DNA from: an uncultured Dysgonomonas sp.
Lineage (GTDB): Bacteria; Bacteroidota; Bacteroidia; Bacteroidales; Dysgonomonadaceae
NCBI RefSeq assembly: GCF_900079725.1
Contig: NZ_LT599032.1
Location: 1 to 60,946 of the forward strand
Direction: 5' to 3'
Length of the DNA stretch: 60,946 bases
Positions 28,675 through 60,372 of the stretch are shown here, in pieces. The notes under the pieces were generated by a model that saw nothing but the letters and a program-made list of their open reading frames with translations, made no database searches and was not told the DNA's origin. The first letter of the stretch is position 1. Every line of letters starts with the position of its first letter. The translations under genes were made by a program, and so were the position numbers.

Positions 28675-29751
28675 ATGACTTTAAAAAATCTATTAATATC
28701 AAATACACCTAGAGAAGAATCTGGAAGTGACACTGCAAGAAAATATTCCTTCCAAAATGATGTTTCTTTATTCCTTTTAATAAGCAGGTTTCATTTAGAT
28801 GAAAATAATTATGTATTCTTGTTCGATTTTCACGATGACTTAGCTGTTTTGGATAATAATGAGAATCCATCTGAAATTGATTTTTTTCAAATTAAGAGTA
28901 AGGATAGGGGAAATTGGACTACAGCTAATTTAATAAAGAAAGAGAAAAAAGATAATTTATCTTTAGTAGGTAAATTATATTCTAATAAAATTAAATTCAG
29001 AGAATATGTTCGTTCTTTGAATATTATATCAAATGCAACTTTTAATGTAAAATTAGCTGAACCGAAAAAAAACTCTATTCTATTGGAGAAAATTCGATTA
29101 TTTAACCTATCAAAAAGCGAAATAACTAAAATTGAAAAGGTTTTAAAAGAAGAATTTAAAATAGAGAATGTTTCTGACTTTAAGGATTTAACAATATTAG
29201 AGGTTACTAAGGTTAGTAATAAAGATAGTATGTCTCATTTAGTTGGTTATTTAGGAGAATTAATTCACTCTATAAACCCTAATAGTAATGTAAATTCAGC
29301 TTTGGCATATAGACAAATTTCGAATGAGATTAAAAGAAAGGCAGAACAAAAAACATCTAATAAGTCTATTTCTACATTTGAAGACATAATAGGGATTAAA
29401 GGTATCTCAAAATTAGATTTTTTAACCCTACTCAAAAATGCAGGTTTATATAAGAGTACAGAGACTGAGTGGGCTGAAATTGTTCAACTAATAGCTCCTT
29501 ATTTTAATTTTCAAGAAATAAAGAAACTGAAGTTGGAATGGAATAATTTAGCAGCTAAAGAAATCACATTATCCAATAATTTAGCCTTTCTACAACTTAA
29601 TAAAAAAATTAGTGAAAAAATAGAGAATATTGAAATGGGTGATTTAAATCTAAAACAAATAGTAGATAAAATATATGCAGAAATAATAAATACAGATCTT
29701 TTTGAGGAGTTTTTTGTGAAAGCAATCATTATAAAAAAACTATATGAATAA
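28675..29751 (+). CDS. DUF4297/Cap4-type nuclease, Lamassu LmuA-like
   Basis: A 358-residue protein. The N-terminal 95 residues fit the DUF4297/Cap4 dsDNA nuclease of the PD-(D/E)XK fold: ARKYSFQNDVSLFLLISRF, then FDFHDDLAVLD and, after a short gap, IDFFQIKSKDRGNW, where Asp-Asp and Q-x-K are the metal-binding and catalytic residues. The C-terminal two thirds are helical and unassigned. It is followed 47 bases later by an SMC-like ATPase gene, which is the pairing of Lamassu systems (LmuA effector, LmuB sensor). The pair is much more AT-rich than the flanking transposon genes, suggesting a recently acquired defence module. Confidence 0.72.
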   Translation: MTLKNLLISNTPREESGSDTARKYSFQNDVSLFLLISRFHLDENNYVFLFDFHDDLAVLDNNENPSEIDFFQIKSKDRGNWTTANLIKKEKKDNLSLVGKLYSNKIKFREYVRSLNIISNATFNVKLAEPKKNSILLEKIRLFNLSKSEITKIEKVLKEEFKIENVSDFKDLTILEVTKVSNKDSMSHLVGYLGELIHSINPNSNVNSALAYRQISNEIKRKAEQKTSNKSISTFEDIIGIKGISKLDFLTLLKNAGLYKSTETEWAEIVQLIAPYFNFQEIKKLKLEWNNLAAKEITLSNNLAFLQLNKKISEKIENIEMGDLNLKQIVDKIYAEIINTDLFEEFFVKAIIIKKLYE

Positions 29752-29798
29752 GAAGAGTAATTATAAGCAGCTAATTAGAAACTTAAGAGAACGAAAAG

Positions 29799-31502
29799 AT
29801 GACAGAGTCGAAAAAATTATATATATCGGAAATAATCCTCATCTCAAGAAAAAAGGAAACAGCACGAAGAATTAAATTTGATCCAGAAAGAACAATAATT
29901 ACAGGTACAAATCACACAGGGAAATCCTCTCTTCTAAAATCTATATACTGGACATTTGGGGCTGAACCAATATTTAATAAACGTTTTAAAGAAGATAATA
30001 TTTTATCTCTTGTTAAATTTGAATTAAATAATGTTCCCTATGAAATTATAAGAGATGGAAGGCAGATCGCTGTTTTTGATTATAACGGAAATTTAATTCA
30101 TAAAAGTCAATCAATTACTAATGATTTAGCTCCATTTCTTTCAAAGTTATTTAATTTTTATCCTCTTTTTCCTAAGCAGGACGGAACATTTATTATTCCT
30201 CCTCCTGCATATTTATTTCTTCCATTCTATATTGATCAAGATAAAAGTTGGTCTAACACATGGGTATCTTTCAATAATCTAAATTTAATTAAAGGATATA
30301 AAAAATTAGTAATTAATTATCATTCTGGATTTTTACCCAATGAATATTATAATTTAAATAAAGAAAAAGAAATCTTTTTACAAAAGCAGAGTGAACTAGA
30401 GAAAGAATATAATATGACATCTAAGATATTAACTGATATTTCAGAAAAACTATCAGATGCAACATTCAATATTGATATTAATACATTCAAAGATGAAATA
30501 AAAAAGTTATTAGTTGAGTATGAAATATTAAAAACAAAAGAGGATAAATTAAAGAATGTATTGTTAGATCTACACCATTTAAAAATGATGTATGAGGTTC
30601 AAATAGATCTAATCACTAACGCCATATTAGAATCAAATAAAGACCTATCTTTTGCTACTAATGTTTTAGAAGAACATATTGACTGTCCAATGTGCGGAAC
30701 ACATTTTGAGAATTCTTTTTTAGAAAGATTTGAGATTGCACAAGATGAAGAAAAGAGTAGAGATTTATTATTAGATATGAAATCTGAGTTAAAGGATATT
30801 GAGTCTCGAATATCTAAAGAAGCAGACAAGCTTAATTCAAATACAGTTGAATTATCTAAAATTAATGAATTATTAGAATCTAAACAAGGAAATATAAAAC
30901 TCAAAGATGTTATAGAAAGTAATGGCAGAAATCAGGTAAAGCAAATCTTTGATGAGAGAAAAAGTGACTTAATATATGAAATTACTGTCATAAAAGAAGA
31001 ACTAGTTGAATTAGAAAAAAATATAAAGAAATTTAAAGATCGAAAACGAAAACAGGAATTAGATTCGTTTTACAGTTCGAAGATGTCATCTTTCATCAGA
31101 AAGCTTGATATTTATACACTTTCTGATGATTCTTACTCTACATTTAATAAACAAATAGATAATTTAGAAACAGGAAGTTCAAAACCAAGAGTATTGATGG
31201 CATATTATTTTGCTTTTTTACACCTAATACAGGAATATTCAACAACCTGTTTCTGTCCAATCATAATAGATTCTCCTAATCAACAAGATCAAGACGAATT
31301 CCATTTAGATAAAATTTATTCATTTATTAATGCAAATCAACCTACTAATTCCCAAATGATTATAGGCGCAGCAGAAGTCTTTGAGAATGAATTAGAAGGA
31401 CACAAAATTATATTAACAGAAAAATTTGCTCTTTTAAATGAACAAGAATATCCAGCAGCAATTGCAGAAGTTAGCAATAAATTATTCCTTCTTTATGATT
31501 AA
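29799..31502 (+). CDS. SMC/Rad50-like ATPase with zinc hook, Lamassu LmuB-like
   Basis: A 567-residue ABC-type ATPase. Walker A is GTNHTGKSSLL (about residues 36-46); a long coiled coil (about 185-440) is interrupted by the Rad50-type hook CPMCG (about residue 299); the signature-like GSSKPRVLMAYYF (about 457) and Walker B CPIIIDSPNQQDQDE (about 487) complete the ATPase. Such proteins sense phage DNA ends or structures and release a partner nuclease in Lamassu and related ABC-3C systems. No separate LmuC gene is present between the two genes, so this is a two-gene form. It ends 12 bases from the convergent mobC gene. Confidence 0.75.
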   Translation: MTESKKLYISEIILISRKKETARRIKFDPERTIITGTNHTGKSSLLKSIYWTFGAEPIFNKRFKEDNILSLVKFELNNVPYEIIRDGRQIAVFDYNGNLIHKSQSITNDLAPFLSKLFNFYPLFPKQDGTFIIPPPAYLFLPFYIDQDKSWSNTWVSFNNLNLIKGYKKLVINYHSGFLPNEYYNLNKEKEIFLQKQSELEKEYNMTSKILTDISEKLSDATFNIDINTFKDEIKKLLVEYEILKTKEDKLKNVLLDLHHLKMMYEVQIDLITNAILESNKDLSFATNVLEEHIDCPMCGTHFENSFLERFEIAQDEEKSRDLLLDMKSELKDIESRISKEADKLNSNTVELSKINELLESKQGNIKLKDVIESNGRNQVKQIFDERKSDLIYEITVIKEELVELEKNIKKFKDRKRKQELDSFYSSKMSSFIRKLDIYTLSDDSYSTFNKQIDNLETGSSKPRVLMAYYFAFLHLIQEYSTTCFCPIIIDSPNQQDQDEFHLDKIYSFINANQPTNSQMIIGAAEVFENELEGHKIILTEKFALLNEQEYPAAIAEVSNKLFLLYD

Positions 31503-40253: not shown

Positions 40254-40590
40254 ATGGCAGAATATTCAATTAACAAAGGAATCGGTAAACCGGCTGAATT
40301 TCGAGGACTCAAAAGTCAGTACCTCTTCATTTTCGCTGGTGGACTGACTCTTAGGTGTATTTATTGTCTTTGTGATCATGTATATGATCGGTATTAGTCA
40401 GGTTATCTGTATCGGTTTTGGTGTTATCACTGCCGGAACATTGGTCTGGGCTACATTTCATCTGAATGATAAATACGGAGAACACGGGCTTATGAAATTG
40501 CAGGCCATCCGTAATCATCCCAGATATATTATCAACCGCAGACGGATAATCCAACTGATTGCCCGAGTAAAAAGAAAGGAGGCTGTATGA
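40254..40590 (+). pseudogene. traF: TraF (DUF4133) with frameshift
   Basis: From ATG at 40254 the frame reads MAEYSINKGIGKPAEFRGLK and QYLFIFAGGL, the conserved DUF4133 start, then breaks near 40346-40353 (ACTCTTAGGTG). The rest of the family sequence continues one base out of register: VFIVFVIMYMIGIS, then NDKYGEHGLMKLQ and HPRYIINRRR, to the stop at 40590. Removing one T from CTCTTAGG, or adding two bases, restores one reading frame of about 112 codons. TraF is a VirB3-like membrane part and normally required for conjugation, so the element is transfer-defective, or this is a sequence error. The end overlaps traG. Confidence 0.75.
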
Positions 40591-41984
40591 GAAATACACT
40601 AAAAGCGACAACACTCGAAAGCAAGTTCCCCATACTGGCAGTAGAACACGACTGTATCCTGAGTAAAGATGCGGACATTACGGTCGCCTACAAGGTTGAA
40701 CTTCCTGAACTGTTTACCGTAACAAGTGCAGAATATGAATCGATCCATGCAGCCTGGGCAAAAGCCATTAAGGTATTGCCTAACTACTCAGTGATTCATA
40801 AACAGGACTGGTTTATTGAAGAGGACTATACGCCCGAACTGAATAAGGAAGACATCAGTTTTCTGTCCCGCAGTTTTGAACGTCATTTTAATGAACGTCC
40901 ATTTCTGAATCATACATCCTACCTGTTTCTGACCAAGACGACCAAAGAACGTGCACGCCAGCAAAGCAATTTCAATGCTTTAACCCGTGGCTTTATCGTT
41001 CCTAAAGAAATGCAGGATCGGGAAACAGCTCAGAAGTTTCTGGAATCGGTCGAACAGTTTGAACGGATCATTAATGACAGTGGATTTATCAGGCTGGTAC
41101 GATTAACTACCGATCAGATTGTAGGAACAGCAGATCAGGCAGGCATTATCGAAAAGTATTTCTCCTTATCTCAGGAAGATACCACCTGCCTGAAAGATAT
41201 GGATCTGGCAGCAGGTGAAATGAAGATCGGAGATAAACGCTTATGTCTGCACACACTATCCGATGCGGAAGATCTACCCGGTAAAGTGGAAACGGATAGC
41301 CGCCATGAAAGGCTGTCTACCGACCGAAGCGACTGCCGCCTATCTTTTGCTGCTCCCATCGGAGTATTACTGACCTGTAACCACATTGTCAATCAGTATA
41401 TCTTTATTGATGACCATGGGGCAAACTTAAAGCAGTTTGAAAAGCAAGCCCGTAATATGCACTCCCTATCCCGATACAGTCGTTCCAATCAAATTAATAA
41501 GCAGTGGATCGAAGAATACCTCAATGATGCTCACAGCTTTGGCTTGATTTCTGTTCGTTGTCATGTCAATGTGATGGCATGGAGTGAGGACAAAGAAGAC
41601 CTTTCCCGAATCAAAAACGATGTAGGCAGTCAGTTAGCTCTTATGGAGTGTAAACCACGGCATAATACTGTTGATACACCGACTTTGTTCTGGGCAGGGA
41701 TTCCGGGTAATCAGGGTGATTTTCCTTTTGAAGAAAGCTTTTACTCTTTTATCGAACAGGCTTTGTGCTTCTTTGTGGAAGAAACAAACTACAAGAGTTC
41801 ACCTTCGCCTTTCGGTATTAAGATGGTAGACAGGGTAACAGGTAAGCCGCTTCATGTGGATATATCCGACCTGCCCATGAAAAAAGGTATCATCACGAAT
41901 CGTAATAAGTTTGTGTTAGGTCCATCCGGTAGTGGAAAGTCTTTCTTTATGAACCACCTTGTCAGACAATACTGGGAACAGGGT
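40587..41984 (+). CDS. traG: TraG (VirB4-like ATPase), exon 1 of 3
   Basis: The first 466 codons of TraG, the VirB4-type ATPase that powers the channel. It contains the N-terminal conserved domain and Walker A GPSGSGKSFF (about residues 449-458), followed by MNHLVRQYWEQG at which group II intron 1 interrupts. Reading on into the intron adds only five residues before a stop (42003-42005). Splicing exons 40587-41984, 44365-44991 and 47392-47856 gives an uninterrupted 829-codon protein, the normal TraG length. The start overlaps the traF end by four bases. Confidence 0.9.
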
Positions 41985-42587
41985 GTGCGACGAGAAGTTG
42001 CATAAGTAATTGTTTAACAACAAGATTAAACCTATTGTTTCGTCAATAGTAGCCTAAGGATACGTGCATTATGAGTAATTGTTTTGTACGAAGCTATCCT
42101 GAGAAAGTAACCCTTCCGAAAGGAGGAGTCGGAACCGTGAGGGAAAGACAACGAGCGTAAGCATTATATGCTCTGGGGGCGAGGCTGAATGGTATGGCTA
42201 ACAAATGTGAACTGTCAATAAACATCGTTACGAAAAGAACAAGCTAAAGAATGCTGATAAGCTTGAACCAAAAGGTACGCAGCCAGGATAATCCTCTCCC
42301 TTGTGGGATTACACGAATATGAGAGCTGCCGGTGGATAGACAGAGCCTAACCCGTTCGTGTTACTTATGCAGAACTCGGAAAACCCGTACTTCTCCTATT
42401 TACTTAGGAAAGTGAGCCGTAAGGCAAGCTGATAGAGGTGCGGATATGGGATAGTAGAAAAAGCGAATGCCACTTTGTAATGAAGTGGATAGAGGTTTAA
42501 ACGTTACCTCACACGAAAGTGGGCAGACTTCTACATAAGGTAATTCTTTACAAGAAACTTTTAGAACTTTTTAAAGTAGAAAAGCAA

Positions 42588-44270
42588 ATGAACGAAAGTA
42601 AAACATCGTGTGCATCAACTGACCGAACAAAATCAATCGCATGGGAATCCATTGAATGGAATAAGTGTGAACGTGAGGTTAAGAAGCTACAAGCACGTAT
42701 TGTAAAGGCTCAAAAGGAAAGTAAACACAATAAGGTGAAAGCCTTACAGTGGGTGCTTACTCACTCTTTTTATGCTAAAGCATTGGCTGTAAAAAGAGTG
42801 TCTTCTAATAAAGGAAAAGCTACGGCTGGGGTAGATGGTAAAATTTTGAATACCCCAATAGCCAAGGCAAATGCGATTACTGAATTGAAAAGACGGGGAT
42901 ATTCTCCGCAACCATTAAGAAGAGTACATATTAAAAAGAGTAATGGAAAACTACGCCCGTTAGGAATTCCAACAATGAAAGACAGAGCAATGCAAGCATT
43001 ATATCTCATGGCATTAGACCCTGTGGCTGAAACAACTGCTGATAACCATTCGTATGGTTTCCGCAAAGGAAGAAGCACGCAGGATGCTATGAAACAATGT
43101 TTTATTGATTTGGCAAAAGATTATTGTCCTAAGTGGATATTGGAAGGAGATATAAAAGGTTGTTTTGACCATATCAGCCATGAATGGCTTCTGGAAAATA
43201 TCCCAATGGATAAGGTTATGCTAAAGAAATGGTTAAAAGCAGGATTTGTCTTTAATAAAATGTTGTTCCCGACAGACGAGGGTACGCCACAAGGTGGTAT
43301 CATATCTCCAACACTTGCTAATATGACCTTAGATGGTCTACAAGAACTACTTGCACAGAAGTATAAAGCAAGAAGAATCAAAGGTGAAAGGAATAAAAAA
43401 TATCACCCAAAGGTCAATCTTGTTCGATATGCTGATGACTTCATCATAACAAGCGAAGACAGAAGTGTATTGGAATCTGAAATCATGCCATTATTAAAAG
43501 AGTTTCTCGCAGTAAGGGGACTTACCCTATCTGAAGAGAAAACGAAGATTACTCATATTGATGATGGTTTTGATTTTCTTGGATTCAACTTCAGAAAGTA
43601 TAACGGAACAATGCTTGTGAGACCATCAAAAGAAAAGGTAAAAGTCTTTTTGGATAAGGTTCGACATATTATTGAAACAAATAAAATGGCGAAACAAGAG
43701 ACAATTATAAGACTTTTAAACCCGATGCTTATAGGTTGGGCTAACTATTATAAATATAGTATAGCATCAGAAATATTCGGTAGAGCAGATTTTGAAATTT
43801 TCAGAAAACTATGGAGGTGGTCGAAAAGACGACATAATGCTAAAGGAAAATATTGGGTTGCCAATAAATACTATCATAGGGTAAATGGTAGAAGCTGGAC
43901 TTTTTCAGTAAGTGATAGTCGTAAAAAGAATGGTGAGTACTTCTCGTTAAAGCGACTAACCAATACAAAAACAGAATCCTATGTGAAGATTAGATCAGAG
44001 GCTAATCCATATGACTCAGAGTGGGCTGAATATTTTGATAAAAGAGAAACTTATCAGATGCTCAACACCCTTAAAGGCAGAAGGTCACTCCTATATATCT
44101 GGGAAAAACAAAACCGTATTTGTCCAATTTGCGAGAATTTAATAAACAGAGAGAAAGAATGGAGTATCATGGAACAAACCATAGAAAACCATATCAAAAG
44201 AACTCTAGTACATGATAGTTGTCGCAGAAGTGTATTACTTAAAAATAGAAGAAATGAGCCGGTTTCATAA
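42588..44270 (+). CDS. Group II intron-encoded protein 1: reverse transcriptase/maturase
   Basis: A 560-residue intron protein; ATG at 42588 (MNESKTSCASTD) is preferred over an upstream in-frame codon. The N-terminal RT0 region is followed by RT motifs GIPTMKDRAMQALY, GFRKGRSTQDA, GDIKGCFDHIS, GTPQGGIISPTLANM and the active-site YADD in LVRYADDFIIT (about residue 285). Maturase domain X follows (IIRLLNPMLIGWANYYKY). A C-terminal HNH-like zinc segment has CPICENL and LVHDSCRR, but the usual His-His of HNH between them is missing. It acts in splicing and mobility of intron 1. Confidence 0.93.
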   Translation: MNESKTSCASTDRTKSIAWESIEWNKCEREVKKLQARIVKAQKESKHNKVKALQWVLTHSFYAKALAVKRVSSNKGKATAGVDGKILNTPIAKANAITELKRRGYSPQPLRRVHIKKSNGKLRPLGIPTMKDRAMQALYLMALDPVAETTADNHSYGFRKGRSTQDAMKQCFIDLAKDYCPKWILEGDIKGCFDHISHEWLLENIPMDKVMLKKWLKAGFVFNKMLFPTDEGTPQGGIISPTLANMTLDGLQELLAQKYKARRIKGERNKKYHPKVNLVRYADDFIITSEDRSVLESEIMPLLKEFLAVRGLTLSEEKTKITHIDDGFDFLGFNFRKYNGTMLVRPSKEKVKVFLDKVRHIIETNKMAKQETIIRLLNPMLIGWANYYKYSIASEIFGRADFEIFRKLWRWSKRRHNAKGKYWVANKYYHRVNGRSWTFSVSDSRKKNGEYFSLKRLTNTKTESYVKIRSEANPYDSEWAEYFDKRETYQMLNTLKGRRSLLYIWEKQNRICPICENLINREKEWSIMEQTIENHIKRTLVHDSCRRSVLLKNRRNEPVS

Positions 44271-44289
44271 TAGAAATTTTGAATTGCTT

Positions 44290-44323
44290 GAGCCGTATGA
44301 GGGGAAACTCTCACGTACGGTTC
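44290..44323 (+). ncRNA. Domain V of group II intron 1
   Basis: A 34-base helix: GAGCCGTATGAG / CTCTCACGTACGGTTC with a GAAA tetraloop and the AGC triad at its base. It starts 19 bases after the reverse transcriptase stop. It is the catalytic core of the ribozyme. The following sequence to 44364 forms domain VI with a branch-point region. Confidence 0.85.
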
Positions 44324-44364
44324 TTAGAGGGGAAAGGGGCAGTAATGCCCCCGACCTACTCGAC

Positions 44365-44991
44365 ACGCACATCGTGCTTGTGGATACGGGGAACTCCTAT
44401 CAGGGACTTTGCAATTTCATCAACCGTCGTACCAATGGAGAAGATGGAGTGTATTTTACATATACGGAAAAAAATCCCATCTCATTTAATCCATTTTATA
44501 CCGACGATGGGGTCTTTGATATCGAGAAAAGAGAAAGCATCAAAACCCTGATAATGACTTTATGGAAGCGGGATAATGAACCTCCCACACGTTCGGAAGA
44601 GGTAGCTCTTTCCAATGCCGTGAGCTTGTATATAGAACGTATCAAAATAGACGAATCTGTTCTGCCGTCGTTCAATACCTTCTACGAGTTTGTCAAATTG
44701 GACTATGCTGCTATCCTCGATGCCAAACGGGTACGGGAGAAAGATTTTGACTTAGCCAACTTCCTCAATGTGCTTGAACCCTATTATAAGGGTGGTGAAT
44801 ATGATTTCCTGTTGAACTCTGAAAAACAACTCGATTTACTATCTAAACGATTCATTGTCTTTGAAATAGATGCGATTAAGGATCACAAAATATTGTTTCC
44901 TATCGTAACGATTATCATTATGGAAGTTTTCATCAATAAAATGCGTCGCTTACAGGGAATCAGAAAGATGATATTGATTGAAGAAGCATGG
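44365..44991 (+). CDS. traG: TraG exon 2 of 3
   Basis: The middle 209 codons of TraG: THIVLVDTGNSYQGLC at its start, then YTEKNPISFNPF, PPTRSEEVALSNAV and the Walker B motif KMILIEEAW at its end. It is bounded by group II introns 1 and 2. On its own it has no start codon. It completes the VirB4 ATPase domain begun in exon 1. Confidence 0.88.
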
Positions 44992-45617
44992 CTGTGACAT
45001 GTAAGTCTTGTGAGTGATTGTTCAACAGCTATTACTAGCGAGTAATAATCTGATTGAACCTGTTGTTTCGTCAACAGTAGCCTAGGGCACGTGCGATAGT
45101 AAGTAATGAATTCGTATGAGAGCTGTCCTGACAATGAAGCCCTTCCGAAAGGAGGAGTCTGAACCGTGAGGGGATGACAACGAGTGTAAGCATTATACGC
45201 TCTGGGAGCTAGGCTGAATGGTATGAATAATGTAATGTGAACCGTTGATAAACGTCGTAACTTCGAATGAGCCGCTAATGATGCTGGGCTCTAACCCAAA
45301 AGGGATGCAGTCGGCTAACCTTCTCCACGCTAAGGTTACACGAACATAAGCACTGCCGGCGGATAGACGGATTCTAACCCATTCATTTGTCACTTATAGG
45401 GAACATGGTAAGCCCGTATTTCTCCTACCATTGGTAGGTAAGCCGACCGTAAGGAACGCCGAATGGGATGCGGGTATAGGAATGTGGAAAAAGCGAATGC
45501 CATTCTGTAATGGGATGGATAGAGGTTGAAACATCGCCTCACACGAAAGTGGGCAGACTTCCGCAAGGTGACTTTTTTACAAGAAACTTTTAGAACTTAT
45601 TTAAAGAAGAAAAGCAA

Positions 45618-47300
45618 ATGAACGACATTAAAACATCGTGTGCATCTACTGACCAACAGTGGAACACTTGGCTCGATATTGATTGGGACAAGTGCCAAAT
45701 TGCGGTTGATAAGCTACAGGCGCGTATTGTAAAAGCTCAGAAAGAAGGCAGATACGGCAGAGTGAAAGCTTTGCAGTGGACGCTGACGCATTCGTTTTAT
45801 GCCAAAGCATTGGCTGTAAAACGTGTTACATCTAATAAAGGCAGTCGAACTGCGGGAGTAGATCGTGCAACATGGTCAACTCCAAATGCTAAATTTCAGG
45901 CAATCAGTGATCTGAAAAGACGAGGGTACACTCCCCAACCGCTAAGACGGATACATATTAAAAAGAGTAATGGAAAATTAAGACCTCTTGGTATTCCTAC
46001 AATGAAGGACAGAGCAATGCAAGCATTATATCTGCTGGCATTAGAGCCTGTTGCTGAAACCACGGCAGACAGTAATTCTTACGGATTCCGTAAAGGAAGA
46101 AGTACTGCTGATGCAAGAGAACAATGTTTCTGTGTATTGGCAAAGAGAACCTCTCCCGAATGGATTATGGAAGGAGATATTAAAGGATGCTTTGACCATA
46201 TCAGCCATGACTGGCTCATCAACAATATTCCAATGGATAAGCTGATGTTAAAGAAATGGCTTAAATGTGGCTTTGTGTTCAATAAAGAACTGTTTCCGAC
46301 AAACGAAGGAACACCTCAAGGGGGGATTATTTCTCCAACTCTGGCTAATATGACTTTGGATGGATTGCAAGTTATGCTTGCAAAGAAGTATCATAAAAAG
46401 TTCGTAAACAGAACAACAACCTATTATCCAAAAGTTCATTTGGTACGTTATGCAGACGATTTTATCATCACAGGCAGAACCAAAGAAGCTTTGGAAGAAA
46501 TCAAACCATTGGTAGTAGAGTTTCTTCAAGAAAGAGGGCTTACCCTCTCAGAAGAAAAGACGAAGATGACTCACATAAGCGAAGGCTTTGATTTTCTTGG
46601 GTATAACATCCGTAAATACGATAATGGTAAACTTCTGATCAAACCATCTAAGGAAGGTCTAAAGAAATTCATGAAGAAAATCCGAGGAATTATTGATTCC
46701 AACAAGGGCAGTAAACAAGAATCTCTTATACGGCTAATGAATCCTGTAATCGTAGGTTGGGTAAATTACTACAAAAACTGTGTAGCATCGGACACCTTCA
46801 GAAAAGCTGATTACTTGATATACGAAAAGTTGCAGCAATGGGCAAGAAGAAGGCATCCCAAGAAAGGAAGAACTTGGGTTTCGGACAGGTATTTTACAAG
46901 AATCAAAAACAGAAACTGGTGCTTTGTAGCGAATTTCAAGAAGAAAGGAAAAGATGACAGGATCGTCCTTAAACGCTTGTATGATACAAAGATCACTCGC
47001 TATGTGAAAGTGAAAGCCGAATCGAATCCATTTGACCCTGAATGGGATACTTACTTCAAAAAGAGAAAAGAGTACAAAATGCTCAAAAATCTCAATGATA
47101 CAAAGCCCTTGCTGTATCTATGGAAAAAGCAAAAAGGAATATGTCCTTTATGTGGAGAGCCAATTGACATAGATGATTCTTGGGGTACTACTGAAAAGAA
47201 AACCACCCCGGAAAAGCAGAATTATTTAGTGCATGATAGCTGTCGCAGAAAGAATGACCAATTAAAAAGATGTAACAATGAGCTGGTTTCTAGTAAATAG
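45618..47300 (+). CDS. Group II intron-encoded protein 2: reverse transcriptase/maturase
   Basis: A 560-residue paralogue of the intron 1 protein, starting MNDIKTSCASTD. It contains the same RT motifs (GIPTMKDRAMQALY, GFRKGRSTADA, GDIKGCFDHIS, GTPQGGIISPTLANM, YADD in LVRYADDFIIT), domain X (LIRLMNPVIVGWVNYYKN) and a C-terminal zinc segment, CPLCGEPIDIDD with LVHDSCRRK, again without the HNH His-His pair. Most RT-core positions are identical between the two proteins by eye, but the ends differ, so these are two separate introns and not a recent duplication of one copy. Confidence 0.93.
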   Translation: MNDIKTSCASTDQQWNTWLDIDWDKCQIAVDKLQARIVKAQKEGRYGRVKALQWTLTHSFYAKALAVKRVTSNKGSRTAGVDRATWSTPNAKFQAISDLKRRGYTPQPLRRIHIKKSNGKLRPLGIPTMKDRAMQALYLLALEPVAETTADSNSYGFRKGRSTADAREQCFCVLAKRTSPEWIMEGDIKGCFDHISHDWLINNIPMDKLMLKKWLKCGFVFNKELFPTNEGTPQGGIISPTLANMTLDGLQVMLAKKYHKKFVNRTTTYYPKVHLVRYADDFIITGRTKEALEEIKPLVVEFLQERGLTLSEEKTKMTHISEGFDFLGYNIRKYDNGKLLIKPSKEGLKKFMKKIRGIIDSNKGSKQESLIRLMNPVIVGWVNYYKNCVASDTFRKADYLIYEKLQQWARRRHPKKGRTWVSDRYFTRIKNRNWCFVANFKKKGKDDRIVLKRLYDTKITRYVKVKAESNPFDPEWDTYFKKRKEYKMLKNLNDTKPLLYLWKKQKGICPLCGEPIDIDDSWGTTEKKTTPEKQNYLVHDSCRRKNDQLKRCNNELVSSK

Positions 47301-47316
47301 AAATTTTAAGTTGCTT

Positions 47317-47350
47317 GAGCCGTATGAAGGGAAACTTTCACGTACGGTTC
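47317..47350 (+). ncRNA. Domain V of group II intron 2
   Basis: The same 34-base fold as in intron 1, with two compensatory-looking changes (GAAGG/CTTTC in place of GAGGG/CTCTC next to the GAAA loop), which keeps the stem paired. It starts 16 bases after the reverse transcriptase stop. Confidence 0.85.
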
Positions 47351-47391
47351 TTAGAGGGGAAAGCTCCCGAAAGGGAGCTGACCTACTCGGC

Positions 47392-47856
47392 AAAGCTTTG
47401 TCTTCCCCGAATATGGCTGAGTACTTAAAGTATTTGTATAAAACGGTTCGTAAATTCTTCGGTGAAGCGATTGTTGTGACACAGGAAGTAGACGATATTA
47501 TTTCATCCCCGATTGTAAAAGAAGCTATCATCAATAACTCCGATTGTAAAATACTGCTCGACCAGCGAAAATATATGAACAAGTTCGATTCGATACAGGC
47601 GTTACTAGGTTTGACCGAGAAAGAAAAAGCTCAGATACTCTCCATCAATATGTCTAACAATCCGAGTCGGATTTACAAGGAAGTATGGATCGGACTGGGT
47701 GGTATGCAATCGGCAGTCTATGCCACAGAAGTTAGCCCGTCCGAGTATTACACCTATACCACTGAAGAAACAGAGAAGCTACAGGTACAGAGGCTATCGG
47801 AAAAGCTAGGCGGAGATATCGAGCAGGCTATTAAGCTAATCACTTCTGATAAGTAG
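47392..47856 (+). CDS. traG: TraG exon 3 of 3
   Basis: The last 154 codons of TraG: KALSSPNMAEYLKYLYKTVR, the conserved FGEAIVVTQEVDDIISSP, KILLDQRKYMNKF and a C-terminal helical region ending at 47856. The open frame extends upstream into intron 2 but only this part is TraG. Splicing of both introns is required to join it to the Walker A and B parts. Confidence 0.88.
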   Translation, partial: KALSSPNMAEYLKYLYKTVRKFFGEAIVVTQEVDDIISSPIVKEAIINNSDCKILLDQRKYMNKFDSIQALLGLTEKEKAQILSINMSNNPSRIYKEVWIGLGGMQSAVYATEVSPSEYYTYTTEETEKLQVQRLSEKLGGDIEQAIKLITSDK

Positions 47857-47917: not shown

Positions 47918-48880
47918 ATGAAAAAGTTCTTTTTTCTGACAGCCATTACTGTCTCTCTATTCAGTTTCAACAGTTGCAGTAACGATGATGATCCGGTAGC
48001 TCCAACAGGTGGAGATGCCGTCCTAAAGATTCAGGCAGGCATCTCGGCAATAGATGTTATCAGTACAAAGGCATCCGTTGTATCCGCATTTCCTGAAGGA
48101 ACCAATATCGGTTTGTTTGTTACATCGGGTAGCCTTGGGGATAACAATAATTCGTACAAAGAAAATGACAATGCGGTCTCTGTTTTCAGACAGGGAATCT
48201 GGTATCAAACACCCGAGATCAGGCTAACAGGAGATAATGCCACTGTCTATGCTTATTATCCATACAGTAGTAACAATACCGATGGCAGATCTATTTTTGT
48301 GGATCACGCTACCCAACAGGATTATATGTATGGAACACATACTCCGGGACAAGCTGCCATCAACAAGGATAATCCGGACGTAGCACTAACGATGAAGCAT
48401 GCAATGGCTTTGATCCAGTTTAATATCAGTAAGTTCAATTATCCATGGTCTGGAAAACTTACCCGTATTGAAATAGCCAATGCCGATAAGAAAACGATAA
48501 TATACAACGAAGGGACAATGGATATCTCAACCGGTATTATCAAGAATACGGAAGGAAAGAATAGACCTGCTACTATGCAAACTTATTCGGATGTTCATCC
48601 GCTTTTGACTATTCCTGAAAAACCATTTCAATCGGAAGCTGACTTTCTGAAAGTCTTTGTTCTACCTGTAAGTTCAACAGGTACTGAAGGAGATGTTGTT
48701 TTTAAGTTTACGATCGATGAACGGATCTATACATGGAAAGTTCCTGCAAAAACGGCTTGGAAAGGTGGAACTAAAAACACCTATACGGTAACAATAAGCG
48801 GTTCGAGCCTGAAGATCGGGAATGTAAATATTTCGGATTGGACAGGCGGTATTTCGGCAAACCTAATCATTACCGACTAA
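47918..48880 (+). CDS. Fimbrillin-family lipoprotein
   Basis: A 320-residue lipoprotein: lipobox FNSCSNDDD, then a fimbrillin-like fold (ALTMKHAMALIQFNISKF, FVLPVSSTG and the C-terminal WKGGTKNTYTVTIS, where a strand before NxYT is typical of FimA/Mfa/fimbrillin proteins). It lies between traG and traI, where many Bacteroidetes transposons carry an adhesin-like gene, and may support cell-cell contact in mating. A short mature N-terminal region could be used for strand exchange. Confidence 0.75.
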   Translation: MKKFFFLTAITVSLFSFNSCSNDDDPVAPTGGDAVLKIQAGISAIDVISTKASVVSAFPEGTNIGLFVTSGSLGDNNNSYKENDNAVSVFRQGIWYQTPEIRLTGDNATVYAYYPYSSNNTDGRSIFVDHATQQDYMYGTHTPGQAAINKDNPDVALTMKHAMALIQFNISKFNYPWSGKLTRIEIANADKKTIIYNEGTMDISTGIIKNTEGKNRPATMQTYSDVHPLLTIPEKPFQSEADFLKVFVLPVSSTGTEGDVVFKFTIDERIYTWKVPAKTAWKGGTKNTYTVTISGSSLKIGNVNISDWTGGISANLIITD

Positions 48881-56619: not shown

Positions 56620-57915
56620 ATGAATAGAATTATAATTATTGGTAATGGTTTTGACAAGGCTCATAATCTTAGAACTGGATACATTGATTTTATAGACGAT
56701 TATTGGAGTAATTTTACCAATGAAATACGGGATATAATTGGGGAACAATATGGTATGGATACAATGATTAGACCTTACTCTGATAGTTGTGTCAGTCTTG
56801 AAAAAAAGACCAAGAGTGATGTAATGCAGAATAAGTCTCTTTTTTATTGTGAAAAAGAAAATCCGTACAACGAATTACTTAGTCATATTGAAGAGTATAA
56901 TAAAGTATTTTCCCAAAAGCATGTTTCACTAAATTTTAAAAATAAATTCTTTGAATATATATCCAATCAATGTTCATTAACAAGCTGGTTGGATATCGAA
57001 AACGAATATTATGATGCATTAAAAAGACTTCTTCTGGAAGAAAGTTCTATAAAGCGAAACGAAAAGATTATTGAGTTAAACAAAGAATTTGAGTCCATTC
57101 AAGACCTTTTGGAAAAACACCTAGTGAATGTAACTGAGAATGTAGAAATAGAGAAACATCAATCTATACAAGAAGCCTTCTCAAGTGTTATAGAATTTGA
57201 TGACATTGCTACTTGTAAACAGACTGAGTTTGTCGATTCGATATTCTCCGATATGTATCGTTTCGATAATTTAATGAATTTTGAACAAGATAAAGAAACA
57301 GATCCTCAATACAATATATGCAGTACTGTAGATGAAGAACGAATGTACTTTGTTGAAAAAAAATTAAAAAATCAGAACTTTAAAGAAGAATATTGTATGC
57401 CTTATACATTAATTCTAAACTTCAACTATACAAAAACAGCTGAAAGACTATATACAAACGAAGAAATGAATTACAAGGTCATCAATATCCATGGAGAACT
57501 TCAAAATCAAAATAATCAAATTATCTTTGGATATGGTGATGAGTTAGATGACGATTATCAGAAAATAGAAAAATTGCAGGATAATGATTTTTTAGAGAAT
57601 ATCAAATCTATAAAATACCATAAAACAAGAAATTACAGAGATTTATTGGAATTTATAAAATCTGGAATTTATCAAGTATTTGTCATGGGACACTCTTGTG
57701 GGAATTCGGATCGGACCCTACTTAATACTCTGTTTGAACACAATAATTGCGCTTCAGTAAAAGTATACTATAGACAATATCCAGATGGTTCTGACGACTA
57801 TAGTAATTTGATAAGGAATATTTCACGGAATTTCAATAATAAACCTCAAATGCGAGACATAGTTGTAAATTGGGAGAATTGCTCACCACTGGTTCCGTAC
57901 AAAAAGTATAATTAG
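56620..57915 (+). CDS. AbiH-family abortive infection protein
   Basis: A 431-residue protein with the AbiH signature. It starts IIIIGNGFDKAHNLRTGYIDF (family GNGFD-x-x-H-x-x-x-T-x-Y), has LILNFNYTKTAERLY (about residue 268), INIHGELQN and FVMGHSCGNSDRTLL. AbiH stops phage multiplication in Lactococcus; the mechanism is not settled, although the GNGFD and NFNYT/HG pattern suggests a SIR2-like NAD-binding fold. It follows the ParB-like gene by 33 bases and precedes the ars operon. Confidence 0.85.
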   Translation: MNRIIIIGNGFDKAHNLRTGYIDFIDDYWSNFTNEIRDIIGEQYGMDTMIRPYSDSCVSLEKKTKSDVMQNKSLFYCEKENPYNELLSHIEEYNKVFSQKHVSLNFKNKFFEYISNQCSLTSWLDIENEYYDALKRLLLEESSIKRNEKIIELNKEFESIQDLLEKHLVNVTENVEIEKHQSIQEAFSSVIEFDDIATCKQTEFVDSIFSDMYRFDNLMNFEQDKETDPQYNICSTVDEERMYFVEKKLKNQNFKEEYCMPYTLILNFNYTKTAERLYTNEEMNYKVINIHGELQNQNNQIIFGYGDELDDDYQKIEKLQDNDFLENIKSIKYHKTRNYRDLLEFIKSGIYQVFVMGHSCGNSDRTLLNTLFEHNNCASVKVYYRQYPDGSDDYSNLIRNISRNFNNKPQMRDIVVNWENCSPLVPYKKYN

Positions 57916-58056: not shown

Positions 58057-58377
58057 ATGTCAAAGAAAGAATTAACAGCCGATCAGGAACAATTAGCACG
58101 CTTTGCTAAAGCACTGGGACATCCTATTCGTATTGCCATACTTGAAATGCTTGCCAATCAATCATGTTGCTATCATGGCGACATGTCAGAGATATTACCA
58201 ATAGCCAAAAGTACGCTGTCACAGCATTTGAATGAGTTAAAAGACGCAGGATTAATCCAAGGGACAATTACATTGCCTACTGTAAAATATTGTATCAACA
58301 ACGAGAACTGGAATAAAGCCAAAGAATTGTTTGGTGGCTTTTTTACTCAGTTACAGAATACAGACGAAAATTGCTGA
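58057..58377 (+). CDS. arsR: ArsR-family arsenic-responsive repressor
   Basis: A 106-residue winged-helix repressor: KALGHPIRIAILEMLANQSCCYHG at the start of the DNA-binding region, recognition helix in AKSTLSQHLNELKDAGLI. A Cys pair (SCC, about residue 39) and the final Cys are candidate arsenite ligands. It should bind the TTCG/CGAA operators upstream (57997-58039) and before arsC (58866-58881). Seven bases separate it from the GNAT gene. Confidence 0.9.
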   Translation: MSKKELTADQEQLARFAKALGHPIRIAILEMLANQSCCYHGDMSEILPIAKSTLSQHLNELKDAGLIQGTITLPTVKYCINNENWNKAKELFGGFFTQLQNTDENC

Positions 58378-58384
58378 TATAATT

Positions 58385-58846
58385 ATGGACATCAGGTTTG
58401 CGACTAAAAAAGATATCCCCGCTATTAAAGAACTGTTCCGTTCAACTATCCTTTCAGTCAATTTGAAAGATTATACTTCCGAACAGGTCGAATGTTGGGC
58501 TGCAAGAGGAAAGGATGCGAGTATATGGGAAGAGTGGATAAATGAGCAATATTTTATACTTGCTGAGAAGAATAATATAATATTAGGATTTGCTGCCCTA
58601 AAATTATCAGGGTATTTAAACTCCATGTTTGTTCATAAAGACTATCAGGGAAAGGGCATTGCAACATTCTTACTTAAAAAGATTGAAGAATATGCACGGT
58701 TGAAAGATATTTCAGAAATAACTGCTGATGTCAGTATTACAGCCGAACCTTTCTTCTCAAAAAAAGGCTATGTTATTTTGGAACAACAGACCGTTTGCAT
58801 TGGTATTTCCATGACAAACTATAAAATGTCAAAAATTTTATCCTGA
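58385..58846 (+). CDS. GNAT-family N-acetyltransferase in the ars operon (ArsN-like)
   Basis: A 153-residue acetyltransferase starting MDIRFATKKDIPAIKELF (ATG at 58385). The acetyl-CoA motif VHKDYQGKGIATFLL is at about residues 78-92, and AEPFFSKKGYVI gives the usual C-terminal segment. ArsN-type GNATs in ars operons acetylate organoarsenicals such as phosphinothricin analogues; that assignment is from context. The upstream in-frame extension overlaps arsR and is unlikely to be used. Confidence 0.75.
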   Translation: MDIRFATKKDIPAIKELFRSTILSVNLKDYTSEQVECWAARGKDASIWEEWINEQYFILAEKNNIILGFAALKLSGYLNSMFVHKDYQGKGIATFLLKKIEEYARLKDISEITADVSITAEPFFSKKGYVILEQQTVCIGISMTNYKMSKILS

Positions 58847-58865
58847 TATTTTTTTAAGATATACA

Positions 58866-58881
58866 TTCGTTATTCTACGAA
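58866..58881 (+). promoter_or_regulatory. Third ArsR-type operator, before arsC
   Basis: TTCGT-TATTCT-ACGAA, the same TTCG...CGAA pattern with the same 16-base length as the arsR operators, sits 38 bases upstream of arsC. It may allow a second regulated promoter inside the cluster. Confidence 0.65.
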
Positions 58882-58919
58882 ATAGGAACTGTTAGTATAA
58901 ATACGAAATTATAAACAAT

Positions 58920-59345
58920 ATGAGAATTTTAATTCTGTGTACAGGAAATAGTTGCCGCAGCCAGATGGCACATGGATTTTTACAATCATTCGATCCTTCA
59001 TTGTCTGTTTATTCCGCAGGGACAAAAGCAAGCGGAAAGGTAAACCCAAAGGCAATAGAAGTCATGCAGGATGCAGGTGTAGATATTTCACACCATACAT
59101 CCGATAGTGTGGAGCAATATATGAATGATAAATGGGATTATGTGATAACCGTTTGCGGTGGTGCAAATGAAAGCTGTCCTGCATTCTCGGGAAAAGTAAA
59201 GAACCGTCTGCATATCGGTTTTGATGATCCGTCCGAAGCTACGGGAACACCCGAATTTATTCAATCCGAGTATATTAGGGTAAGGGATGAAATCAAAATA
59301 GCATTTTATGAATTATACACCGATAAGATAAAAGGTCATGAGTAA
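58920..59345 (+). CDS. arsC: Arsenate reductase, thioredoxin-coupled LMW-PTP type
   Basis: A 141-residue enzyme. The P-loop [11 protein letters not shown] holds the nucleophilic Cys 8 and Arg 14; CGGANESCP provides the relay Cys pair (about residues 80 and 87). This is the Staphylococcus-type ArsC that reduces arsenate to arsenite with thioredoxin. Other parts ([26 protein letters not shown]) also match. It overlaps the ACR3 gene by eight bases. Confidence 0.93.
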
Positions 59346-60372
59346 AAAGAAAATGAGTTTCTTAGATAAGAACTTAACACTTTGGATATTCCTTGCGATG
59401 GCTATCGGTGTAGGATTGGGGTATTTTATCCCGTCTTTCAGCAGCTACATAGATTCCATGTCGAGCGGAACAACAAACATTCCTCTGGCAATCGGTCTAA
59501 TCCTGATGATGTACCCGCCATTGGCAAAAGTAGATTACAAACAACTGCCGAAAGTTTTCAAGAATGTCAGAATACTGACTGTCTCGTTAGTCCTGAATTG
59601 GATTATCGGACCTGCCCTAATGTTCTTACTTGCCATTCTCTTTTTACACGATTATCCCGAATACATGGTGGGGGTTATCCTGATAGGTCTTGCACGGTGT
59701 ATTGCAATGGTGCTTGTATGGAATGATCTGGCAGAAGGTAATACAGAATACGGTGCGGGACTTGTCGCCCTGAATAGTATTTTTCAGGTATTTTTTTACA
59801 GTTTTTATGCGTGGATATTTGTAACAAAACTTCCTCCCTTGTTCGGTTTTGAGGGTACAATCGTGGATATATCCATAGGTACAATAGCCGAAACAGTAGC
59901 TATCTATTTGGGTATTCCTTTCCTGATAGGTATTCTAAGCCGATTGATATTAGTTAAAATAAAAGGGGAACAATGGTATAAAGAAAAATTTATTCCTACA
60001 ATCTCTCCAATTACTTTAATCGCCTTACTATTTACCATAGTATTAATGTTTAGTCTCAAAGGAGGACTGATCGTACAAATACCATTAGATGTAGTGCGTA
60101 TAGCAATACCATTATTAATCTATTTTGTAGTGATGTTCTTCCTCAGCTTCTTTGCAGGAAAATTAATGGGGGCGTCTTACGATAAAAATGCTTCGATAGC
60201 TTTTACAGCCACAGGTAACAACTTTGAACTGGCTATTGCTGTTGCTATTGGTGTCTTCGGCTTGCATAGCGGACAGGCTTTTGCAGGCGTAGTAGGCCCA
60301 TTGGTGGAAGTTCCTGTACTTATCCTGTTGGTAAACATTGCCTTTTGGCTAAAAAAGAAATATTATAAATAA
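59338..60372 (+). CDS. arsB: ACR3-type arsenite efflux permease
   Basis: A 344-residue membrane protein with ten helices, matching ACR3 (not the ArsB antiporter fold, although often named arsB). The conserved Cys is in [16 protein letters not shown] (about residue 124), and the conserved [10 protein letters not shown] and [19 protein letters not shown] segments follow. It pumps arsenite made by ArsC. It overlaps arsC by eight bases. Confidence 0.92.

Follow-up and report, generated by a model that had tools for sequence, protein, structure and literature searches.

How has a conjugation gene come to carry two group II introns beside its two ATPase motifs, and what have these introns done to the gene that holds them? 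The question is raised by traG, a virB4-like gene in the window, by which we mean the whole 60,946-nucleotide stretch analysed here: positions 1 to 60,946 of contig NZ_LT599032.1 (assembly GCF_900079725.1), the start of the single-contig 5.22-Mb genome of an uncultured Dysgonomonas sp. The gene is surrounded by genes for a relaxase, MobC, a coupling protein and further tra products, an arrangement of the Bacteroides conjugative-transposon kind. Comparison with other copies in the same genome and with relatives points to two answers. The window traG appears to be a mosaic, in which exons 1 and 3 come from one lineage and exon 2 from another, and the simplest account is that the block bounded by the introns was exchanged through recombination inside them. 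The second intron, in turn, belongs by its sequence to a Bacteroidales lineage, found mostly at Walker-B codons, in which the first and the penultimate nucleotide, a known contact pair, have changed together.

All features of the split gene lie on the forward strand. Exon 1 (40587..41984, 466 codons) matches PF12991 (DUF3875) and positions 1-58 of the PF19044 profile, exon 2 (44365..44991, 209 codons) positions 57-260, and exon 3 (47392..47856, 154 codons and the stop) positions 261-411. Searched apart and never joined, the three pieces cover positions 1-411 of the 413 in this Pfam P-loop_TraG profile as successive parts, and the gene thus carries the domain by which a TraG/VirB4 protein of a Bacteroidota integrative and conjugative element (ICE) is recognised. 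Both introns are in phase 0, and the expectation of a first-pass annotation of this DNA, that the 466, 209 and 154 codons would rejoin in frame, is borne out. In the translated sequence GPSGSGKS (codons 41919-41942), which we take to be Walker A, stands 14 codons before intron 1, and ILIEEAW (codons 44968-44991), presumably Walker B, directly before intron 2, confirming the proposed placement near the two ATPase motifs. A possibility raised with that proposal, that homologues would not align across the joins, was checked as well: intron-free traG genes of relatives (e.g. L135, L136 and L139) run straight through both, and the claim survives. The host gene is, as far as sequence can tell, the traG/virB4 of a Bacteroidota ICE split by two complete, apparently mobile group II introns, and removal of both by splicing would restore TraG and let the gene work.

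The limits of the introns, which the annotation had set at 41985-44364 and 44992-47391, turned out to be exact to the base. Each intron gives full-length matches to RF02012 and RF00029. The domain D1-D4 core lies at 42031-42179 in intron 1 (E 4.6e-25) and at 45059-45208 in intron 2 (E 6.5e-22), and the D5-D6 matches (44288-44364 and 47315-47391) end precisely where the introns had been predicted to end. Intron 1 is fixed by its five copies in this genome, identical in all 2380 bases and with flanks that diverge at its ends, and intron 2 by a traG copy that lacks it and preserves the empty site, GCATGG^AAAGC. While intron 1 conforms to the 5' GUGYG and 3' AY consensus (GTGCG...CGAC in 5/5 copies), intron 2 departs from both: it starts with CUGUG, its first nucleotide (44992) being C instead of G, and it ends with GC (penultimate G at 47390, last C at 47391). 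Consensus ends are not a strict definition, and its other features keep intron 2 in the bacterial group II family. The intron 1 maturase (42519..44270; RVT_N, RVT_1 and GIIM) and the intron 2 maturase (45618..47300) each hold reverse transcriptase and X (GIIM) domains within one open frame and bear a C-terminal tail with cysteines. They are similar and not identical, as had been noted, with 347 of 561 aligned columns the same (62%). Eleven maturase relatives were seen among viral contigs.

A TraG profile search of the genome returned 11 pieces that make up four traG genes. Both introns are present in copies A (the window), B (at 2.85 Mb) and C (at 5.18 Mb), and copy D (at 2.92 Mb) has intron 1 only. 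Intron 2 is identical over 2400 positions in its three copies. The fifth copy of intron 1 (3773159-3775538) has the same ends as the others and lies outside traG, between frames on the opposite strand that resemble halves of one gene. In a DNA search of 298 relatives, the top hit of intron 1 beyond this genome was 71-73% identical, and intron 2 had full-length matches of 90% and 86% identity. The identical copies within diverged ICEs suggest that both introns have freshly spread in this genome. In Phocaeicola massiliensis, a circular 2418-bp 'plasmid' record (L242:1-2418, OY726052.1) consists of one complete group II intron whose two ends are joined through two additional G; it may be a DNA circle formed by the intron, a tandem array that has collapsed, or an artefact of assembly.

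The three two-intron genes differ sharply along their length. Copies A, B and C are 100% identical in both introns and in the 627-nt exon 2 (88.5% for exon 2 of D), yet their identity falls to 68.8-88.7% in exon 1 and 70.3-92.2% in exon 3. Window exon 2 is 91.1% identical to that of the intron-free G058 as against 74.8% to that of L139, while for window exons 1 and 3 the nearest sequence is L139 (75.3% and 74.7%). Exon trees of 12 rows each agree with this split. Exons 1 and 3 of A group with the intron-free alpha-lineage traG L139 (support 0.962 and 0.684, respectively), and exon 2 of A, a beta-lineage sequence, groups with B, C and G058 (0.946). Since exons 1 and 3 of B also group with G058 (0.999 and 0.954), B fits as the donor of exon 2. 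The edges of the identical block are sharp, with mismatches at -1 (A vs B), -4 (A vs C) and +6; among A, B and C, identity upstream of intron 1 ends within 3 nt and identity downstream of intron 2 within 5 nt. Plain inheritance of the introns with their ICEs was rejected, as exons 1 and 3 have diverged by 8-31% and the introns, 100% identical, not at all. Recombination of whole ICEs was likewise rejected for A: in the stretches compared, A has no further near-identical tract to B, C or D (the best other tract, A vs C, is 85.6% over 1451 bases), which leaves the intron-exon 2 block as the sole one.

Some of the evidence pulls the other way. The trees place A exon 3 with L139 at only the support given above, and C at 0.854 and 0.632. 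B and C have further similar tracts in common, one of 2.0 kb at 98.2% and one of 2.8 kb at 94.0%, so wider ICE recombination is possible for C, and the case for exchange is cleaner for A. Recombination in the introns and homing with co-conversion of the flanking exon leave an identical scar.

The latter route is the strongest of the alternatives, though we consider it rather unlikely. Here intron 2 would have homed into an ICE that already held intron 1, and repair would have copied the donor's exon 2 in a 5' co-conversion tract ending in the shared intron 1. It needs fewer events, implies the direction from donor to recipient by itself, and has the sharp 3' edge of the block in its favour. 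Copy D, with intron 1 only, is the intermediate it expects, and this copy, whose exon 2 is native, also accords with recombination in the introns. Introns at the corresponding site in other genomes speak against such a tract. In all three same-genome pairs of introns at the intron 2 position (site 2), the introns are nearly or fully identical and the 300 nt of upstream exon are not: 100% against 58.9% in Bacteroides ndongoniae, 100% against 66.0% in B. mediterraneensis and 97.8% against 51.8% in Phocaeicola vulgatus. Homing alone therefore carried no upstream exon in these cases, although none of them has an intron 1 in which a tract could be anchored. Of four cross-species pairs at site 2, one (L161/L162, probably the same ICE) has a 99.0% identical upstream exon and the other three have 56-71%. 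Nor did the insertions of intron 1 into A, B and C bring upstream identity beyond the 3 nt noted above.

The distribution of its relatives suggests how intron 2 reached its codons. A genome scan with its maturase, taking the best 80 of 373 relatives, gave 76 loci, with traG sequence present at 34 of them. The intron sits exactly at the intron 2 position in 17 different traG genes, L196 and L158 sharing one traG in this count. The hosts belong to Dysgonomonas, Bacteroides, Phocaeicola, Parabacteroides, Sphingobacterium, Chryseobacterium, Flavobacterium, Dyadobacter and Pedobacter, together with one metagenome-assembled genome (MAG), and four of these traG relatives are only 24-27% identical in exon 1. 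Other placements were also found: L179 at the intron 1 position, L172-L175 at exon 1 codon 308, and 11 loci with the intron outside the matched traG joins. Among L145-L153, L172-L175 and L140-L144, traG is interrupted or broken at exon-2 residue ~173, exon-2 residue ~48 or exon-1 codon 308; several of the broken pieces stop at contig ends, as expected from repeated introns.

The pairing between exon-binding sites (EBS) and intron-binding sites (IBS) points in the same direction. Covariation identified an EBS1 column with a mean score of 4.67 of 6 over 35 distinct pairs, compared with 2.81 for the next-best column and a maximum of 2.89 in 2000 shuffles; for EBS2 the mean was 3.59 over 52 pairs vs 2.56. 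The flanking exon is matched by EBS1 in both introns and by EBS2 in intron 2. In intron 1, EBS1 (CCCTTG, 42298..42303) faces IBS1 (CAGGGT, 41979..41984). In intron 2, EBS1 (CCACGC, 45325..45330) faces IBS1 (GCATGG, 44986..44991, the codons for Ala-Trp), and EBS2 (CTTCGA, 45261..45266) faces IBS2 (TTGAAG, 44978..44983). The third base of the Ala codon varies among relatives and faces EBS1 as a pair, a wobble or a mismatch. With relatives at this very site in the 17 traG genes, homing to conserved codons explains where intron 2 sits. Four observations sit less easily with this explanation: EBS2 of intron 1 was not located in the covariation search, EBS1 of intron 2 has one A-C mismatch to its own site, no HNH domain appeared among the Pfam matches of either maturase at E 0.001, and a published survey of group II introns found no preference for conserved sites (PMC2814812).

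A quite different reason for the arrangement would be that the introns are kept as a brake on conjugation. At least one intron is present in each of the four traG copies of this genome, and Ll.LtrB is described as restraining conjugation of its host plasmid by re-targeting the relaxase mRNA (PMC6003770). Neither the fifth copy of intron 1, outside traG and on the strand opposite to the frame it interrupts, nor the more than 40 traG genes that are intron-free, in frames of at least 817 codons, among the matches listed for 101 relatives, is what a maintained brake would lead one to expect. We regard a kept brake as improbable; by analogy with Ll.LtrB, some braking might possibly occur as a side effect.

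The ends of intron 2 are shared with a group of relatives. Among 78 introns with a readable 5' end the first nucleotide is G in 65, C in 12 and U in one. Where both ends were read by script (65 introns, or 52 once identical ribozymes are merged), the first and penultimate nucleotides are G/A in 52, C/G in 11, U/G in one (L161) and G/C in one (L221). These counts exclude the truncated L188 and include the window's intron 1 twice among the 78, in traG and as the ectopic copy. In the 13 introns whose 3' end was not scripted, ten show CGAC or CGAT, L196 shows CGGC, and L213 and L229 show no end. L196 and a P. vulgatus plasmid copy, L241, are two further C/G introns and bring the total to 13. The U1 copy, in Parabacteroides distasonis (L161:4294-6694), is of the intron 2 lineage and keeps the penultimate G. 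Together with it the C1 group forms one clade (100/98), nested among G1 introns, with a G1 sister (L163) and G1 outer groups, which implies a single switch in this sample. That both altered nucleotides belong to the intron is seen at the ectopic L196, since its uninterrupted homologues L160 and L156 align by eye through the site with no gap. In the ribozyme, 245 columns reach at least 95% conservation among the other introns; the C1 group departs from 15 of these, including both contact partners, and simple arithmetic, uncorrected for the tree, puts the chance of hitting both at ~0.0035. In accounts of the wild-type contact, the first and penultimate nucleotides interact in a non-Watson-Crick manner (PMC4238363), and the contact acts between the splicing steps or in the later ones (PMC4238363, PMC3669008). 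For RmInt1, a penultimate G is described as among the most damaging substitutions, with its effect on step two (PMC4238363). A C1 paired with the penultimate G would keep the contact in Watson-Crick form.

The weight of this covariation is reduced by its history: it amounts to a single event together with the one U1 copy and an independent G/C intron; the latter, L221, is a MAG contig that starts at the intron, leaving its first base with no exon to check against. L221 and L213 form a separate maturase clade, and the G first and C penultimate of L221 resemble the 3' end reported for RmInt1. A pattern scan for C1 starts found none in 395 genomes of the class; the pattern was too narrow, missing even the window's own intron, and the scan is uninformative about frequency.

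Instead of a G1 to C change, intron 2 might have its 5' end extended by two nucleotides (CU ahead of GUGAC), as happens in fungal ribosomal RNA introns and C.te.I1. A GUG does occur two bases inside intron 2, and introns with 5' shifts exist (PMC4424553), but the relatives L187 and L193 start GTGTGACATG, in gap-free alignment with CTGTGACATG; EBS1 and EBS2 put the exon edge before the C; the plasmid copy L241 reads CTGCGAC, a C1 followed by UGYG; and only the gap-free reading explains the penultimate A to G change. The extension was rejected after this comparison of start sequences, and we hold it to be very unlikely. Least credible of all is the retrohoming, as one unit, of a composite lariat that starts at the 5' end of intron 1, encloses exon 2 and finishes at the 3' end of intron 2. 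In its favour, the identical block comprises precisely these two introns with exon 2, but the recipient's own exon 2 would remain, and this reading was rejected as exon 3 directly follows intron 2 in A, B and C and there is no second exon 2.

Taken together, homing of the introns, an exon 2 swap through recombination within them and a lineage with a C1-G contact make up what we consider the probable explanation of the locus. In outline, two mobile group II introns would each have inserted by homing at codons close to a conserved ATPase motif of a Bacteroidota ICE virB4/traG, recognising the 5'-exon codons by EBS-IBS pairing, and splicing would be expected to remove both and leave the gene functional; the sequence itself supplies the ends, the pairings and the signs of mobility. 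Two identical 2.4-kb introns flanking exon 2 in several ICEs could then have served as homology anchors, and recombination within them may have moved the 627-nt exon 2 from a B-like ICE to A and C with exons 1 and 3 untouched. In a single Bacteroidales lineage G1 would have become C and the penultimate A become G, preserving the second-step contact as a Watson-Crick pair. We lean, by a narrower measure of confidence, towards the more general statement: that in a natural mobile lineage the first-penultimate contact has been rewired, with C1-G (U1.G in a variant) replacing G1.A, and that traG is modular, its central ATPase exon being exchanged between diverged ICEs as an intron-bounded cassette. 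If true, such exchange would be an instance of bacterial introns shaping their host gene through recombination in present-day mobile elements. A mobile lineage with C1 and penultimate G would also be a ready natural double mutant for probing the contact. The exon exchange and the altered-end lineage would account for the arrangement with no regulatory purpose required.

Other genes of the window complete the picture of the element. Directly after traG and before the next tra genes lies a fimbrillin-like (Mfa_like_1) gene (47918-48880). A gene for a Cap4-type nuclease, next to a weak SMC-like match (28675-31502), and an AbiH-type gene (56620-57915) are possibly phage-defence cargo. Near the window end, acetyltransferase and SBF-type transporter genes (58331-60372) could, as a guess, form an arsenic-resistance cluster.

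Several known systems resemble parts of this locus. In the sections consulted of the open-licence PMC literature, no natural C1 group II intron, no introns in Bacteroidota traG and no exon exchanged between bacterial introns were found; a group II intron inserted with ErmF is described in CTnDOT-like elements (PMC6907783), and contacts between intron boundaries have a parallel in spliceosomal introns (PMC4424553). Among solved structures both maturases are, by sequence, nearest to 6me0_C, which we take to be the maturase of the T.el4h group II intron ribonucleoprotein; for the intron 2 maturase no PDB entry matches better (E 1.3e-189, residues 5-519). The comparison covered maturase sequence; features that may set intron 2 apart from T.el4h are its first C, its final GC and its place in virB4 genes of Bacteroidota ICEs. 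RmInt1, with a penultimate C, is likewise mobile with a non-consensus penultimate nucleotide; the portion of the report that treats its ends describes a change at the 3' end only, whereas in intron 2 the first nucleotide is changed too (PMC4238363). Ll.LtrB, in the relaxase gene of pRS01, is also a group II intron that splits a conjugation gene, but it is a single intron, in a relaxase gene and not in virB4, and the relevant part of its description mentions no exchanged exon (PMC6003770). The introns of the window are of a known kind, and the new parts are the exchanged intron-bounded exon and the C1/penultimate-G lineage. For the former, a parallel is found in yeast cox1, where the mobile group II introns aI1 and aI2 lie next to each other and can change neighbouring exon sequence by co-conversion when they move. 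Those introns are mitochondrial; in the window, the exchanged tract stops at the outer intron ends, and the setting is bacterial ICEs.

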